This document shows, piece after piece, positions 38,271 to 44,017 of a DNA stretch of 64,000 bases. Source of the DNA: Actinoallomurus soli (lineage in GTDB: Bacteria; Actinomycetota; Actinomycetes; Streptosporangiales; Streptosporangiaceae); NCBI RefSeq assembly GCF_024055715.1, contig NZ_JAMXMV010000012.1, forward strand, positions 1 to 64,000. Reading direction: 5' to 3'. Numbering within the stretch: position 1 is the first letter of the stretch; every line of letters begins with the position of its first letter. The notes beneath the pieces are model-generated. The model saw only the letters and a program-made list of their open reading frames with translations, had not been told where the DNA came from and did no database searches. The position numbers and the translations under genes are program-made.

Positions 38271-40046
38271 TCAGTTCCCGGCGGCGAGGGTCAGCTGAAC
38301 GGTCCTGCTCTGCCCGCCACGGGTGAAGACGACCGGCACCGTGTCGCCGGGCGACTTGCTGCGGATGGCGACGATCAGCTCGTCGGCGCCGCCGATCGCC
38401 TTGCCGGCGAAGGACGTGATGACGTCGCCCGCCTTCAGCCCGGCCTTCTCCGCGGGGCCGCCCGGCGTGATCGCGCCGCCCTTGCACTGCGTGGCCGAGC
38501 CGCTGGTCGAGATCCGCGCGCCGTTGCCCTGGTAGGACATGTCCATGCAGGCGCCGATGATCGGGTGGGTGACCTTGCCGCCCTTGATCAGCTGCTCGGC
38601 GACCCGCTTGACCTGATTGCTCGGGATCGCGAAGCCCAGGCCGATGCTGCCGCTCTGCTGCTTGTCGCCGCCGAGGGTCTGGCCGCCGAGCGTGGCGATC
38701 GCGGAGTTGACCCCGATCACGCGGCCCTGCGAGTCGACCAGCGGGCCGCCGGAGTTGCCGGGGTTGATGGCCGCGTCGGTCTGCACGGCGCTGATGTAGG
38801 CGGACTCGCCGCTCTCGCCGCTCGTGGTGACCGGGCGGTTCAGCGCGCTGACGATGCCGGTGGTGACCGTCCCGGCCAGGCCGAGCGGCGAGCCGATCGC
38901 GATCACCGGGTCGCCGACGGCGATCCCGTCGGAGTCGCCGAGGAGGAGCGCCGGACGGCCGTCGAGCGTGGCCGGCTTGATCACGGCGATGTCGGAGTTG
39001 GGGTCGCGGCCGACGATGCTCGCCGAGGTGGTCTTTCCGTCGTTGTACACCACCTGCATCGTGCCGCCCTGGGCGGCCGGCGCGACCACGTGGTTGTTGG
39101 TGACGATGTACCCGCCGTTGACGATGAAGCCGGTGCCCGCGCCGCCCTCGGTGGCGTTCGCCACCTTGATCATCACGACGCTGGGCACGACGCGCCTGGC
39201 GATCCCGGCGACGGACCCCGGAGCGCGGTTCTTGGCGCCGGTGGACGACCCGCCGCCCAGGTCGACGGCCTTGGGACCGCTGTCACGGGTGGCGACCACG
39301 CCGATGCCCGCACCCAGGGCGCCGGCGATGAGCGCGACCGCCACCGCGACCGCGACGAACACCCCCATGACCGGCCCGGAGCGTTCGTTCGGCCGGACCG
39401 GGGGCACGGGCGCCCAGTTCGGCGTGGTCCCGCCGGGTCCGCCGGGCGGCGTGCCCCAGGCGTACGGGACGGAGGACGGCGGCGGCTGGTCGTGCGGCGT
39501 GAAGATCGGCCGGGGCGCGCCCTGCTCACCCGGACGGCCGCCGTACCCGTAGGCCGGGGCCCCCTGGCCGTACGCCTGACGACCCTCCTCGGCACCCGGG
39601 GAGCCGTTCTGACCGGTGTATCCCGGACCGCCCTGCTCGAAGCCCGCGGAGCCCCCCTGGCCCGCGAATCCGGGAGGGCTCGGCTCGTAGCCCGCAGAGC
39701 CGTTCTGACCGGTGTATCCCGGACCACCCTGCTCGAAGCCCGCCGAGCCGCCCTGACCGGCGTATCCCGGACCACCCTGGCCGAAGCCCGGACGGCCGTT
39801 CTGCTCGGGCGGCGTCGTCGGCCCGCCCTGACCGGAGCCTCCGGCCGGGCCGTACGGACGGCCGTCCTCGCCGTACGCCGAGGACGCTCCCGGATCCGGC
39901 GGCGCCATGCCCTCATAGCGGGGCGGACCGGACACCAGCAGCTGGTCGGTCAGGCTCAGGGTGCCGTCCTCGTCCCCGGTGTTCGGACCGCGCACACGGC
40001 CGTCGTCCGGCGCAGATCCCCCGGGCGCGCGGCTGTCATCCGTCAT
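38271..40046 (-). CDS. htrA: HtrA-like membrane serine protease with PDZ domain
   Basis: The 591-residue protein has a Pro/Gly-rich cytoplasmic N-terminus with four 16-residue repeats and one transmembrane helix (VMGVFVAVAVAVALIAGALG, about 225-245). A trypsin-like domain follows with His in VTNNHVV, Asp in NSDIAV and Ser in GNSGGPL, then a C-terminal PDZ domain (GGPAEKAGLKAGDVITSF). It degrades or refolds damaged envelope proteins. It is downstream of SigE and anti-sigma genes; the 170-bp gap upstream contains TATGCT as a possible own promoter. The ATG at 40046 follows GAGGAG by eight bases. Confidence 0.95.
   Translation of the reverse strand: MTDDSRAPGGSAPDDGRVRGPNTGDEDGTLSLTDQLLVSGPPRYEGMAPPDPGASSAYGEDGRPYGPAGGSGQGGPTTPPEQNGRPGFGQGGPGYAGQGGSAGFEQGGPGYTGQNGSAGYEPSPPGFAGQGGSAGFEQGGPGYTGQNGSPGAEEGRQAYGQGAPAYGYGGRPGEQGAPRPIFTPHDQPPPSSVPYAWGTPPGGPGGTTPNWAPVPPVRPNERSGPVMGVFVAVAVAVALIAGALGAGIGVVATRDSGPKAVDLGGGSSTGAKNRAPGSVAGIARRVVPSVVMIKVANATEGGAGTGFIVNGGYIVTNNHVVAPAAQGGTMQVVYNDGKTTSASIVGRDPNSDIAVIKPATLDGRPALLLGDSDGIAVGDPVIAIGSPLGLAGTVTTGIVSALNRPVTTSGESGESAYISAVQTDAAINPGNSGGPLVDSQGRVIGVNSAIATLGGQTLGGDKQQSGSIGLGFAIPSNQVKRVAEQLIKGGKVTHPIIGACMDMSYQGNGARISTSGSATQCKGGAITPGGPAEKAGLKAGDVITSFAGKAIGGADELIVAIRSKSPGDTVPVVFTRGGQSRTVQLTLAAGN
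39585..39776 (-). repeat. Four 48-bp repeats in the htrA N-terminus
   Basis: Units at 39729-39776, 39681-39728, 39633-39680 and 39585-39632 encode 16-residue variants of GGPGYTGQNGSAGYEP. Units 1/3 and 2/4 are the closest matches, suggesting duplication of a 96-bp pair. Confidence 0.8.
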
Positions 40047-40216
40047 CACCAAGCTCCTCGCGTACCGCGCATGGACTTTGCTTCAACGCTCCACACTGCC
40101 GGGCAGGGCATGTGGCGAGCATAAGCGACCCGTGCCACTGAACCATTCGGGCCATCGCGTTACCCCGCCCGTGGTCACATTCACCTGAACGCCATACAAA
40201 ACGCGATCTTCACGGA

Positions 40217-41290
40217 TCAGTCAAACGGGTTGGCCCACGATGTCAGCCGGTCCAGCCCCCGGCCGATGCGGCCCCAGAATCCCGTGTCGCCGTGCGGCAG
40301 CGCGGCCACGGCCTGGTCGACGACGGGCGGTGGCGCGTCCGCCAGGATCGTGTAGACGTAACCGCGGCTGGCCCACACGGCGCGCTGCTGGACGGTGTCG
40401 CGGAGGTAGACGGTCCGGCCGCCGCGCGTGGTCTTGTGCCAGCTCTGCACGCTGCTCGGGTCGAGCACGCCACGCTGGACGAACACCGAGACGACCGAGA
40501 GCCCGTCGGAGTAGCTGAGGTGCACGACCGGGCCGCCCAGGTCCTGCTGCCGCGCGTCGTACAGGCTGAGGTGTCCCGGCAGGGCGGACTGCACCGGCCA
40601 GCCGCGGTAGCGCAGCGCGCCGAGGTCGGCGCCGGCCAGCTGGTGCGTCCAGGGCGCCTCGACCGTCTGCGGCGCGGAGGCCGCCACGAACATCGTCTTC
40701 GGCACCGACGGCCGCATCTCGGTGAAGAAGGTGAGGTTCACCGCGCGGCCCTGCTGGTCGAGCAGCTCGCGGCGGAGCATGAGGCCGGTGGCGCGGTCGA
40801 TGTAGAAGCGGCCGGCGGGGGTCCCGTCGGCGCGGCGCGCCTCGATGATCGTGGTGGGCCGGCCGCAGACCTGTCCGTCGCCGGCCTGGACGACGGCGTA
40901 GTTGCGGGCGAGCAGGTCGAGCATCTTCGGCGTGTACCCGGTGAGGCCGCCCTGGGCCTGCTGCGGGTAGTCCGCCTCGAACATCTGGCCGCCCTGCTCG
41001 GCGGTGGTGCTCTGCACCCGCATCCGGGTGCCCTGCCCGGGCACGTGGGCGACGTTGACCAGCGACGTGGTCGACATGCCGCTGCGGCTCCACGACGTGA
41101 TGTACTGCACGCCCTCGTACGCGGTGTCGCGCGCGGCCCCCTCGGCGCCGCGCAGCAGCCGCAGGGCCTCCGGGTCGGACCGCAGGCGTGCGCCGCTGGC
41201 GGTGTCACCGGTGGTCACGAACCACATCAGCAACAGCGCGGTGGCGAGGCCGCCCGCCAGCCACGAGTGGTGCGAGGCCCGGCCGCTCAC
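40217..41290 (-). CDS. RseB-like (MucB/RseB N-terminal) regulatory protein
   Basis: The 357-residue exported protein has a hydrophobic N-terminal helix (SWLAGGLATALLLMWFVTTG). The periplasm-side domain shows the lipoprotein-like fold pattern of MucB/RseB (LRLLRGAEGAARDTAYEGVQYITSW, RFYIDRATGLMLRRELLD). RseB homologues bind the anti-sigma factor and tune its cleavage. The GTG at 41290 overlaps the anti-sigma stop (GTGA), so it is made coupled to it. Its place between anti-sigma and HtrA fits control of SigE. Confidence 0.86.
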   Translation of the reverse strand: MSGRASHHSWLAGGLATALLLMWFVTTGDTASGARLRSDPEALRLLRGAEGAARDTAYEGVQYITSWSRSGMSTTSLVNVAHVPGQGTRMRVQSTTAEQGGQMFEADYPQQAQGGLTGYTPKMLDLLARNYAVVQAGDGQVCGRPTTIIEARRADGTPAGRFYIDRATGLMLRRELLDQQGRAVNLTFFTEMRPSVPKTMFVAASAPQTVEAPWTHQLAGADLGALRYRGWPVQSALPGHLSLYDARQQDLGGPVVHLSYSDGLSVVSVFVQRGVLDPSSVQSWHKTTRGGRTVYLRDTVQQRAVWASRGYVYTILADAPPPVVDQAVAALPHGDTGFWGRIGRGLDRLTSWANPFD

Positions 41291-41847
41291 GGGTGATCGC
41301 CGGCCGTGACCTCGGGCCGTGGGTCGGTCAGCGGGACGTCCCCGGAGGTCAGGGCGTGCTCGACGGCGAACTGCTCGACGGACGGCGTGACGCGGGGCAG
41401 GGAGCCCGGGTCGGAACCCGCGGCGAACGCCGCCGAGCCGACGCCGAGCACCGCCAGCGTGGCCGCGCCCGCGATGAGGTAGCGCCCACGCGGCAGCCGG
41501 CGCCGCGCGGCGGCGGCGCGGCGGGGACGGTTGTCGGACGGCCGGGTACGGGCCGGGACGTCGCCGGGTCGCGCGACGGCCGGGGGACGGGCCTGACCGG
41601 GCAGCCGGGGAACGGGTGGCGGAAGGGGGTCCCCCGGCTCGCCCATGGCCTCCAGACGGCGCAGGAGGCCCTCGGATGGCATCGTGTCGTTCAGCGCCCG
41701 CAGGCGCTTCTTGAGGCAGCGCAACGCCTCCGCCTCGGCGCGGCACTCCGCGCAGGCGGCGAGGTGGCGATGGGCCTTCTCGCGTTCGTGGTGGCCGAGC
41801 TCGCCGTCGACCAGCGCGGTGAGCCGCTCCCCCAGATGGCCGCTCAT
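41287..41847 (-). CDS. rseA: Zinc-type anti-sigma factor (RseA-like) for SigE
   Basis: The 186-residue protein has an N-terminal ZAS/zf-HC2 domain, His28-x3-Cys32-x2-Cys35 (HLAACAEC), then a Pro/Arg linker. One transmembrane helix (RYLIAGAATLAVLGVGSAAFA, about 125-145) and a short exterior tail follow. It should bind and hold SigE at the membrane until an envelope signal. The ATG overlaps the stop of the third micro-ORF (ATGA) and has GGAGG upstream. The name follows the mycobacterial equivalent. Confidence 0.9.
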   Translation of the reverse strand: MSGHLGERLTALVDGELGHHEREKAHRHLAACAECRAEAEALRCLKKRLRALNDTMPSEGLLRRLEAMGEPGDPLPPPVPRLPGQARPPAVARPGDVPARTRPSDNRPRRAAAARRRLPRGRYLIAGAATLAVLGVGSAAFAAGSDPGSLPRVTPSVEQFAVEHALTSGDVPLTDPRPEVTAGDHP

Positions 41848-41915
41848 GGGGCCTCCTTCGTCGGAGGAGGGACCAGACGCGCTGTGCTTGCGATTCGCTC
41901 GCTCCGCTCGCTCAT
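41844..41915 (-). CDS. Micro-ORF 3 of the SigE/anti-sigma linker
   Basis: Twenty-three codons reading [13 protein letters not shown] then LVPPPTKEAP. It starts on the TGA of micro-ORF 2 (ATGA) and its own TGA overlaps the anti-sigma ATG. It is the most diverged copy (a few base changes near the 3' end). A GGAGG site within its end serves the anti-sigma gene. Confidence 0.55.
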   Translation of the reverse strand: MSERSERIASTARLVPPPTKEAP

Positions 41916-41983
41916 GAGGCCTCCTCCGTCGGAGGAGGGACCAGACGCGCTGTGCTCGCGATTCGCTCGCTCCGCTCGCTCAT
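41912..41983 (-). CDS. Micro-ORF 2 of the SigE/anti-sigma linker
   Basis: Twenty-three codons reading [13 protein letters not shown] then [10 protein letters not shown], identical to micro-ORF 1 except R to L at residue 14. GGAGGAGG lies four bases upstream of the ATG, and both ends overlap neighbours by ATGA. Confidence 0.55.
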   Translation of the reverse strand: MSERSERIASTARLVPPPTEEAS

Positions 41984-42051
41984 GAGGCCTCCTCCGTCGG
42001 AGGAGGGACCCGACGCGCTGTGCTCGCGATTCGCTCGCTCCGCTCGCTCAT
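41980..42051 (-). CDS. Micro-ORF 1 of the SigE/anti-sigma linker
   Basis: Twenty-three codons reading [13 protein letters not shown] then [10 protein letters not shown]. The ATG overlaps the SigE stop (ATGA). The ribosome site GAGGAGG lies in the last SigE codons. SigE's own C-terminus ([11 protein letters not shown]) resembles the micro-ORF ending, so the repeat may have grown from or into the sigE 3' end. Confidence 0.55.
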
Positions 42052-42665
42052 GAGGCCTCCTCGGCGGGCGGCTCCGTGCCGGTGGAGGCGGCGGCGCGGC
42101 GCGGGCCGCGGTGCTCCAGCGCCGCGCGCAACTGGGCGCGGCCACGGTGGATCCGGCTGCGGACGGTGCCGATCTTCACGCCGAGGGTCGCGGCGATCTC
42201 CTCGTACGACAGGCCCTCGATGTCGCACAGCACGACGGCGGCGCGGTAGTCGGGCGCGAGCGCGTCGAGGGCCGCCTGGACGTCGGCGTCGAGCTTCTTG
42301 TCGAAGTAGGCCTGGGCGGGGCTGGGCTCGGGTCCGTGCAGGCGCTCGGCGGCGTCCTCGGACAACCCCTCGAACCGGATGCGCTGACGACGCCGCGCCT
42401 GATCCAGGAAGAGGTTCGTGGTGATCCGGTGCAGCCAGCCCTCGAACGTGCCGGGCTGGTAGTTGGCCAGGGAACGGAAGACCCGGACGAAGACCTCCTG
42501 GGTGAGGTCCTCGGCGTCGTGGGGGTTGCCGGTGAGCCGGAAGGCCAGTCGGTAGACGCGCGCGGAGTGCTCCCGCACGATCTCGTCCCACGTCGGAGGA
42601 GTCCAGGCGATGCCGGGGTCGTGCACCGACACTCCCCTTTCACGTACGAGTTCTGCCACCGACAT
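42048..42665 (-). CDS. sigE: ECF sigma factor SigE (envelope stress)
   Basis: The 205-residue sigma has region 2 ([43 protein letters not shown]) and region 4 ([44 protein letters not shown]). The downstream anti-sigma, RseB-like protein, HtrA and TatB, with a divergent O-methyltransferase, match the mycobacterial sigE locus. GGAAC-N17-CGTT lies upstream, so it probably transcribes itself. The ATG at 42665 has GGGGCAG upstream. The last codons carry the ribosome site for the first micro-ORF. Confidence 0.93.
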
Positions 42666-42714
42666 ACTGCCCCGTTTCTTCCTCTCCGCCTAGCGGTAGC
42701 CACGCCCTCTGAAG

Positions 42715-42740
42715 AACGTGACGGTACGCGGCGGAGTTCC
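42715..42740 (-). promoter_or_regulatory. Putative SigE-type promoter of sigE
   Basis: On the minus strand GGAAC (42740-42736) is followed after exactly 17 bases by CGTT (42718-42715). That matches the ECF/SigE-class consensus of actinobacteria. Initiation would fall near 42708, about 43 bases before the sigE ATG. Confidence 0.6.
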
Positions 42741-42771
42741 CCCTCCGTACTAGTGTTTGCCCTGCAGGCTC

Positions 42772-43425
42772 ATGCGTCCCAAGGAGGAAGTCATCGACGC
42801 GGTGAAGGCCACCCTGGCCTACGTGGAGCAATACCTCCCGGAGGACGAGCCGCTGCGCGAGGCCCGGCAGCGCGGCATCGACGTCGGGGCCACCCCCATC
42901 GGCGCGGCGGGCGGCGCGGCCCTGCGGTTCCTCGCCGCCGCCATCAGCGCCCGCACGGTCGTGGAGATCGGCTCCGGCTGTGGCGTGTCCGGCATCTGGC
43001 TGCTGCGCGGGATGCGTCCCGACGGAGTGCTCACGAGCGTGGACGTCGAGCCGGAGAACCAGCGGCTGGCCCGCGAGGCGTACGCCGCCGCAGGCTTCCC
43101 GACCTCTCGTGCCCGCATGATCGCCGGCCGCGCCCTGGACGTGCTGCCGCGGCTGACCGACGGCGCGTACGACATGGTGTTCTGCGACGCGGTGAAGCAG
43201 GAGTACCCCGACTATCTCGGCGAGGCGCTGCGGCTGCTGCGGCCCGGCGGCGTCGTCGCGTTCGACAACGCCCTGTGGAATGACCGCGTCGCCGACGCGG
43301 CCGACCGGGACCCCGACACGGTGGCGATCCGCAGCCTCGGCCGCATGGTCCGCGAGGACGACCGTCTCGTTCCGCTGCTGCTGCCGATCGGGGACGGGCT
43401 CCTCACCGCGGTCAAGTGCCGGTGA
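42772..43425 (+). CDS. O-methyltransferase (caffeoyl-CoA/COMT-like class I)
   Basis: The 217-residue SAM-dependent enzyme has SAM loop VVEIGSGCGVSGIWL, acidic SVDVEPENQ, the metal/substrate Asp in VFCDAVKQEYPDYL and FDNALWND. Relatives methylate catechol-type substrates using Mg; the substrate here is unknown. Divergent from sigE, as the corresponding methyltransferase is in mycobacteria. The ATG at 42772 is preferred; TACTAG about 20 bases upstream may be the -10. Confidence 0.9.
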   Translation: MRPKEEVIDAVKATLAYVEQYLPEDEPLREARQRGIDVGATPIGAAGGAALRFLAAAISARTVVEIGSGCGVSGIWLLRGMRPDGVLTSVDVEPENQRLAREAYAAAGFPTSRARMIAGRALDVLPRLTDGAYDMVFCDAVKQEYPDYLGEALRLLRPGGVVAFDNALWNDRVADAADRDPDTVAIRSLGRMVREDDRLVPLLLPIGDGLLTAVKCR

Positions 43426-43438
43426 TCCTCTCGACGTA

Positions 43439-44017
43439 ATGATCGCCGTACGGGCGCGGACCTCGCGGCAGGACCTGACCTCGGCCGCCGGGACGCTCGT
43501 CCTCCTCCTGGTGTCCGTGGCGTTCGCCGTCAGCGGCGCGCTGAGCCTGCCGGCCGTGGGCGGTGTCGTGGCCCTCGTCGTCGGCGTGCCGGGGATCGCG
43601 CTGTTCGGCGCCCGCCTCGTCGCCACGGCAGGGCGGGCGGTGAGCGGGCGGCCGGTGCTGGAGGTCGGCGAGCACGGGGTGTGCGTGCCGGCGGCGTGGC
43701 CGTGGTCGCGCGCCCGGGATCGCCGGCTGTCCTGGCCGGAGGTGGCCTCCGTGGTGGTGTGGAACGAGACGCTCCCGCGCGGGCGGATGCGCTCGTTCCC
43801 GCGCGTCGCCTTCCTTCCCGTCGGGGAGCGCGCGGCGGAGGCAGGGGCCGAGCCGGGCGTGGAGCTGCTGGCGCTGCGCCTGGAGGACGTGCCCGGAACC
43901 GCGACGCTGCACTGGTCGGCGGCGCTGCCGCCGCGCGCGACGGTCTCGCTGGAGACGGTCCTGGAGGAGGTGCGCCGGCTCGGCGGCGTACGGATCGTGG
44001 ACGCCCGGTCGCGCTGA
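43439..44017 (+). CDS. Membrane hypothetical protein (STM3941/PH-like)
   Basis: This 192-residue protein has two N-terminal helices (LVLLLVSVAFAVSGAL, VVALVVGVPGIALFGARLV). A soluble domain follows (PVLEVGEHGVCV...LSWPEVASVVVW), resembling STM3941/PH-like bacterial membrane proteins, and the end is Arg-rich. Function unknown. It starts 13 bp after the methyltransferase stop (same strand) with only a weak GGTGATCC ribosome site. Confidence 0.7.
   Translation: MIAVRARTSRQDLTSAAGTLVLLLVSVAFAVSGALSLPAVGGVVALVVGVPGIALFGARLVATAGRAVSGRPVLEVGEHGVCVPAAWPWSRARDRRLSWPEVASVVVWNETLPRGRMRSFPRVAFLPVGERAAEAGAEPGVELLALRLEDVPGTATLHWSAALPPRATVSLETVLEEVRRLGGVRIVDARSR

Follow-up and report, generated by a model that had tools for sequence, protein, structure and literature searches.

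In the window, the whole stretch of 64,000 nucleotides analysed here, the sigma factor gene sigE and the gene for its anti-sigma factor are separated by a tandem array that we interpret, with a probability of roughly 0.8, as three head-to-tail copies of a MIRU-like repeat, which would have entered the ATGA shared by sigE stop and anti-sigma start while preserving the hand-over from one to the other. Four lines of sequence evidence carry this interpretation: the anatomy of the array, the repeat family to which its units belong, the empty sites in relatives and the register that the units keep. MIRUs, best known from tuberculosis genotyping, are dispersed repeats of ~40-100 bp present in many copies, and a preliminary description of this DNA had proposed a MIRU-like logic with a coupled chain of micro-ORFs; this proposal is now well supported by a dispersed family, NTGA at both unit ends, a kept frame, a predicted Shine-Dalgarno hairpin and empty sites.

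Anatomy of the array

The locus comprises the following features, all on the minus strand:

42048..42665, minus: sigE, ECF RNA polymerase sigma factor, 205 aa (NF007229 SigE, Sigma70_r2, Sigma70_r4_2)
41980..42051, minus: MIRU-like unit 1, micro-ORF (model match), running from the ATGA at the sigE stop to the next ATGA
41912..41983, minus: MIRU-like unit 2, micro-ORF (Tandem Repeats Finder and model match)
41844..41915, minus: MIRU-like unit 3, micro-ORF (Tandem Repeats Finder and model match), which gives the anti-sigma start its GAAGGAGG
41287..41847, minus: anti-sigma factor with a zf-HC2 zinc finger, 186 aa (PF13490, 25.5 bits, cut-off 22.2)
40217..41290, minus: MucB/RseB-like regulator, 357 aa, overlapping the anti-sigma stop in GTGA (PF03888, 36.9 bits, cut-off 22.3)
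38271..40052, minus: HtrA/DegP-like serine protease with a PDZ domain, 593-aa ORF from a putative TTG start (PF13365, PF13180)

The sigma factor was identified as SigE by a score of 336 bits against NF007229 (cut-off 265). Tandem Repeats Finder places the array at 41841-42062 (period 68, 3.3 copies, 97% matches) and gives it a score of 416, the highest among the window's 32 tandem-repeat rows, so that the three 68-bp repeats described earlier are indeed there, 97% alike. The coordinates likewise bear out the proposed chain of overlaps: the sigE stop lies in the ATGA at 42051-42048 on the minus strand, the anti-sigma start within the last ATGA of the array (41847-41844), and the anti-sigma/RseB junction is a GTGA (41290-41287). 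Every micro-ORF of the array runs from ATG to TGA over 72 bases, four of which (ATGA) are common with each neighbour, an overlap that follows from 68 being 2 modulo 3. Two details of the preliminary description needed amendment. The micro-ORFs do have 23 residues, but the EEAS ending attributed to all of them does not extend to the third: unit 1 carries GGAGGAGG at its 3' end, inside a predicted hairpin, but the peptide of unit 3 ends in KEAP and its DNA in GAAGGAGG, which lies four bases 5' of the anti-sigma ATG. Each unit does contain a ribosome site, but this serves the next start and not its own, the site of micro-ORF 1 being provided by the 3' end of sigE.

No other unit match was found inside the window at E < 0.1, and a search of positions 40000-44000 against Rfam gave a single match, under its gathering score and outside the array. 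We rejected a CRISPR-like or protein-domain repeat as the identity of the sigE array, since its units are dispersed and join a stop to a start codon. Elsewhere in the window, 48/96-bp repeats occupy the N-terminal half of the HtrA-like protease ORF (39601-39803), and a 36-bp tandem repeat (5.3 copies, 96% alike) lies at the very start of the contig (1-190); its identification as a CRISPR array was rejected, as the copies follow each other head-to-tail without spacers.

A dispersed repeat family at stop/start junctions

The unit at the sigE junction is not special to that operon and belongs to a dispersed family located at stop/start junctions, in gene orientation. The genome-wide search for the 68-bp unit suggested in the preliminary description found 43 places in the 9.42-Mb genome with blastn and two units as queries, 49 sites with a 20-base pattern at up to 2 mismatches (against 3 for a reversed control), and 80 matches with a sequence-only model, R1, at E up to 0.01. 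The same model has 82, 165, 30, 10, 46, 27 and 43 matches in seven congeners, where at most 150 candidates were scored per genome and the high counts are possibly too low, and under stricter filters it matches in 56 of 150 genomes and 27 of 68 genera of the bacterial family. A survey of the phylum, with 12 candidates scored per genome, gave unit matches in 3 of 396 genomes, the window's own included; at this sensitivity the latter returned 15 matches against the 80 known, and absences mean little. Plasmid and phage records contained no match to the unit at E 0.01.

A regular expression collected 35 distinct full units, 31 of 68 bp and 4 of 69 bp. When aligned, they fall into two main 5' types, ATGAGCGAGCG.AGCGAGCG and ATGACCGAGCG.AGCGAGGG, and all 35 finish with AGGAGG, three bases, C and NTGA, or near it.

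Related units also occur outside the bacterial family. Two loci of a genome from another family of the same class (G387) carry 77-bp GTGA...GTGA units that are exactly coupled and have the 5' half of the window unit, the common half in one of them (L262, unit at 1500-1576) being VSERSERTDNTASPGTAGPSASEARS, and a coupled ORF of 122 bp that begins alike is found in a genome elsewhere in the phylum; such 77-bp and 122-bp units were noted at L262 1500-1576, L263 and L261. In the family of G387, some match to the 77-bp unit is present in 7 of 81 genomes, with five places in G387 itself, and among these 81 genomes only G590 has a further full-length match. Plasmid records gave no match to the 77-bp unit.

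Units keep register with the flanking genes

We call an array exactly coupled when every ORF has its stop in the NTGA that follows, which for the last ORF is that of the downstream gene. After removal of two duplicates from the 42 loci examined in the window's own genome, 40 remained, with one unit in 27, two in 9 and three in 4. The arrays are exactly coupled in 25 cases, read on in frame in 8 and have a degraded left end in 7 (L018, with a 67-bp spacing, is one of these); the in-frame loci have units of 69, 66 or 60 bp, and two of them (L027 and L031) have lost the right-end NTGA. NTGA is present at both ends in 31 of the 40 loci, in 22 of which the first base is identical, which is only suggestive of a fixed target-site base. 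An ORF of at least 60 codons lies 3' of the unit in 38 of 40 loci and, among the 33 whose left end is intact, 5' of it in 25.

A further 30 loci (10 from the same genome and 20 from relatives, chosen among the best-scoring rows) comprise 25 coupled cases (one of which has a unit of 59 bp), 3 in frame, 1 that is neither (L276, whose right end is ATGG) and 1 without a match. In total, 50 of the 62 arrays with an intact left end are exactly ATGA-coupled, 11 are in frame and 1 is neither, which gives a workable frame in 61 of 62, in a sample that consists mostly of best-scoring copies and favours intact units. Copies of one 68-bp source are non-independent trials of register; 12 of these arrays have lengths off the multiples of 68 bp, and all 12 are coupled or in frame. 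Third codon positions in the units vary less than the others, not more. We see no sign of selection on the micro-ORF peptide, which we rejected for this lack of excess variability, and it therefore seems to be the frame, rather than the peptide, that is kept.

Units of 69 bp are read in frame into the next gene at L012, L019, L020, L028, L039, L273, L282 and L287. For annotators this is a warning, as in-frame units may put an MSERSER or MTERSEG N-terminus on unrelated annotated proteins.

Predicted hairpins at the unit ends

The stretches around 50 distinct unit ends (30 bases 5' of NTGA and 8 from NTGA on) are predicted to fold better than their dinucleotide shuffles, with a mean z of -1.85 (43 negative, 31 below -1) and, for the most part, with pairing of the Shine-Dalgarno site or of the start codon. 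Units of the first type are predicted to pair their Shine-Dalgarno site with CTCCTCC just 5' of it; in the second (GGTCATGAGGCC...GGCCTCATGACC), the start codon is placed in a predicted 12-bp stem, whose loop takes up part of the Shine-Dalgarno site. For the window units, the predicted fold agrees with the pairing of ribosome site and preceding sequence proposed earlier, at z values that are modest against shuffles (-0.5, -0.91 and -1.05); the fold of the whole array has a z of -1.70, with 12 of 200 shuffles equally good. We rejected a single consensus hairpin for all units, as RNAalifold returned only 8 scattered pairs and the subfamilies pair in different registers. In the second-type stem, 96.7% of cells are paired (a value reached by 21 of 500 shuffles), and the covariation score is 0.274 versus 0.225 (reached by 15 of 500); two-sided changes occur at 2 pairs only, no more than in shuffles (343/500), and covariation support for this start-codon stem is weak.

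Empty sites and unit number within the genus

We compared the junction between the window's own genome (G000) and seven other genomes of the genus (G001-G007), a count across strains and genera proposed in the preliminary description, and found a range from 0 to 4 units, from different subfamilies. Next to the three units of G000, G002 has four, G001 has one, followed by an anti-sigma start in ATGG, so that its micro-ORF stops 9 nt too late, G006 has a 36-bp piece and then one short unit, and G007 has a coupled insert of 50 bp, possibly the remnant of a unit; the remaining three of the seven congeners (G003, G004 and G005) have a plain ATGA overlap. In G003, this empty site already has GAGGAGG in the 3' end of sigE, at a similar spacing. 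The four units of G002 (69+69+69+68 bp) are fused as one 92-codon ORF, which therefore leaves a single obligatory restart, onto the anti-sigma gene. The G002 junction is identical to that of Actinoallomurus iriomotensis, and that of G006 to 'Actinomadura sp. DC4'; these two hold the nearest loci that bear a species or strain name, and the window itself most likely belongs to an Actinoallomurus.

Two biosynthetic junctions behave alike. The thrC/thrB junction holds two units in G000 and a short insert in G006, and is a plain NTGA in the remaining six genomes; purQ/purL holds a first-type unit in G000, a second-type unit in G002 and a piece in G001, and is a plain ATGA in the remaining five. The gene names were verified with pieces of 200 residues, for which PurQ scored above its cut-off and ThrB, ThrC and PurL were best matches below whole-protein cut-offs, as expected for pieces. 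With plain NTGA in congeners at all three junctions examined (sigE/anti-sigma, thrC/thrB and purQ/purL), units thus enter pre-existing stop/start overlaps. The recurrence of units at a given junction is equally compatible with independent hits and with replacement by conversion.

A second SigE-like sigma gene is present in all eight genus genomes (L051-L058; G000:C11:204957-205499 and its congeners), in none of which a zinc-finger anti-sigma motif was found within ~700 bases downstream of it.

The sigE junction across the bacterial family

Among 201 sigE loci from overlapping sets, 169 have a recognisable downstream zinc-finger anti-sigma gene, and the other 32 were dropped. They provide 136 distinct junctions: 73 direct NTGA overlaps, 13 gaps of up to 6 bases, 17 longer gaps after a non-NTGA stop and 33 inserts whose first bases are the NTGA of the sigma stop. 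A micro-ORF (in the window, three in a row) couples 27 of these 33 inserts exactly, versus ~20% by chance when inserts are shuffled and varied in length, the 27 being related in groups and not 27 events. The other 6, the G001 unit among them, are not exactly coupled, with doubtful start calls in two. Several of the coupled inserts are unlike the window unit, with MRNHSHDECHDEPLGKEWA in Streptosporangium, MSDSRAACPRQHHEEGA in Acrocarpospora and MKYRGDV in further genomes. In all 27, a broad pattern, applied with no chance control, finds a purine-rich site no more than 16 nt from the anti-sigma start.

On a FastTree tree of 146 rows, where long gaps without NTGA were coded as no insert, the insert state shows no fewer than 10 changes, and the window's unit family alone no fewer than 3. 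We viewed seven loci singly, six from the 17 long-gap junctions and one from the 6 uncoupled inserts: in four, all from Actinomadura, an ORF of MTERSEG- or MTRRSKG-like sequence finishes exactly at the start of the anti-sigma gene; the other three lack one. A coupled micro-ORF of 19 or 27 aa with a common ECHDE..G.E core, unlike the window unit, occurs in Streptosporangium, Planobispora and relatives (L074, L079, L081, L160, L162, L164, L166, L171, L174, L183 and L196).

Relation to known systems

To judge from its organisation, the unit works like a mycobacterial MIRU. It is dispersed, lies at stop/start overlaps in gene orientation, overlaps its neighbours at -4 nt and has empty sites in relatives. 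According to a review, MIRUs too are short dispersed repeats that insert at start codons, where the -4 nt coupling of the unit ORF probably leaves the gene unharmed (PMC12548453), and the senX3-regX3 MIRU is described as likewise forming tandem copies in a regulator operon, of 77 and 53 bp (PMC4213456), which like 68 are 2 modulo 3; the 77-bp unit of G387 has the same size. In contrast, the unit described here measures 68 bp, occurs in the genus of the window and in further genera of the same family, and lies between a sigma and an anti-sigma gene, whereas senX3-regX3 is a two-component pair. In the open-access literature, the titles among the matches listed named no such units outside mycobacteria.

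The sigma/anti-sigma stop/start overlap, relayed in the window through three micro-ORFs, has a counterpart in Streptomyces sigR-rsrA, for which an ATGA overlap, a ribosome site inside the sigma gene and incomplete coupling are described (PMC5472188). That overlap is direct, with no inserted units, and concerns SigR/RsrA, not SigE.

REP, BOX and similar small repeats are short, dispersed and hairpin-forming, as is the unit here, and are usually palindromes between genes. The MIRU-like unit differs from them in being a short ORF that links a stop and a start codon.

Possible mechanism and role

In the mechanism that we propose, a dispersed MIRU-like repeat, composed of some 64 bp between one NTGA and the following one, would have entered the pre-existing four-base ATGA of the sigE stop and anti-sigma start, and tandem multiplication after entry would have led to three units. 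With its short ORF starting in the upstream stop codon and stopping in the downstream start codon, the insertion would part the overlapping genes and leave the stop/start hand-over unbroken, and its hairpin would hide the Shine-Dalgarno site of the next ORF or, in one subfamily, the start codon. A ribosome that finishes sigE would re-initiate on the micro-ORF, unfold the hairpin and start anew at every ATGA until it reaches the anti-sigma gene. We infer this re-initiation, the tandem growth after entry and the manner of unit movement from the arrangement of the units; translation is probably handed over from gene to gene through them, and the peptide itself is probably irrelevant. The strong GGAGG before each start could equally provide for independent ribosome loading as an alternative to coupling.

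Whether the array does anything beyond preserving coupling can be weighed from the same data. We lean slightly towards a selfish or neutral insertion, in which coupling survives solely through the purging of insertions that disrupt it and the array has no regulatory effect. The presence of units in the biosynthetic operons thrC/thrB and purQ/purL, the tolerance of coupled and in-frame outcomes alike and the absence of a visible peptide constraint all suit this reading, which the review also gives for MIRUs (PMC12548453); what it would not call for is the repeated appearance, in several genera, of micro-ORFs unrelated in sequence at the sigE junction, the only junction surveyed at such breadth. 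It is doubtful that the unit instead acts through its near-consensus Shine-Dalgarno site, raising anti-sigma synthesis independently of sigE translation and giving an anti-sigma excess. The GAAGGAGG of unit 3, four bases before the ATG, and the purine-rich sites of the 27 coupled inserts would fit such an effect, as would the sigma excess that the Streptomyces work reports for a weakened rsrA ribosome site (PMC5472188), but the site is predicted to be paired, and the empty site of G003 already has its GAGGAGG at a similar spacing.

Copy number is interesting at a sigma/anti-sigma junction because, according to the Streptomyces work, the SigR/RsrA ratio matters and coupling is partial (PMC5472188). 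If each restart lost ribosomes, the number of units would set the ratio of SigE to anti-sigma factor and could have been selected for that, and unit number does vary in the eight genus genomes (none in three, a 50-bp insert, one, one short with a piece, three and four), with unrelated inserts recurring at this junction in other genera. A dedicated counter is nevertheless unlikely as the main explanation, because the four units of G002 form one ORF with one obligatory restart, three of seven congeners have no unit and the same units lie at dozens of other junctions. Only marginally less unlikely is a broader form of the idea, in which the sigE junction would be a favoured slot, repeatedly entered by MIRU-like units and unrelated micro-ORFs, mostly in exact register and with ribosome sites of their own, whose number would act as a slowly mutating anti-sigma rheostat. 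An internal promoter for the anti-sigma gene within the repeats is very improbable: promoter activity is reported for the senX3-regX3 MIRU region (PMC4213456), but a simple scan of 41700-42900, covering the sigma-70-like type only, found no such site.

On the reading of the array as inserted MIRU-like units, soil actinobacteria possess a close functional counterpart of MIRU-type elements. Because natural empty sites, two hairpin designs, and coupled and fused outcomes occur side by side here, the question of whether such elements are passengers or regulators becomes testable in strains that are harmless.
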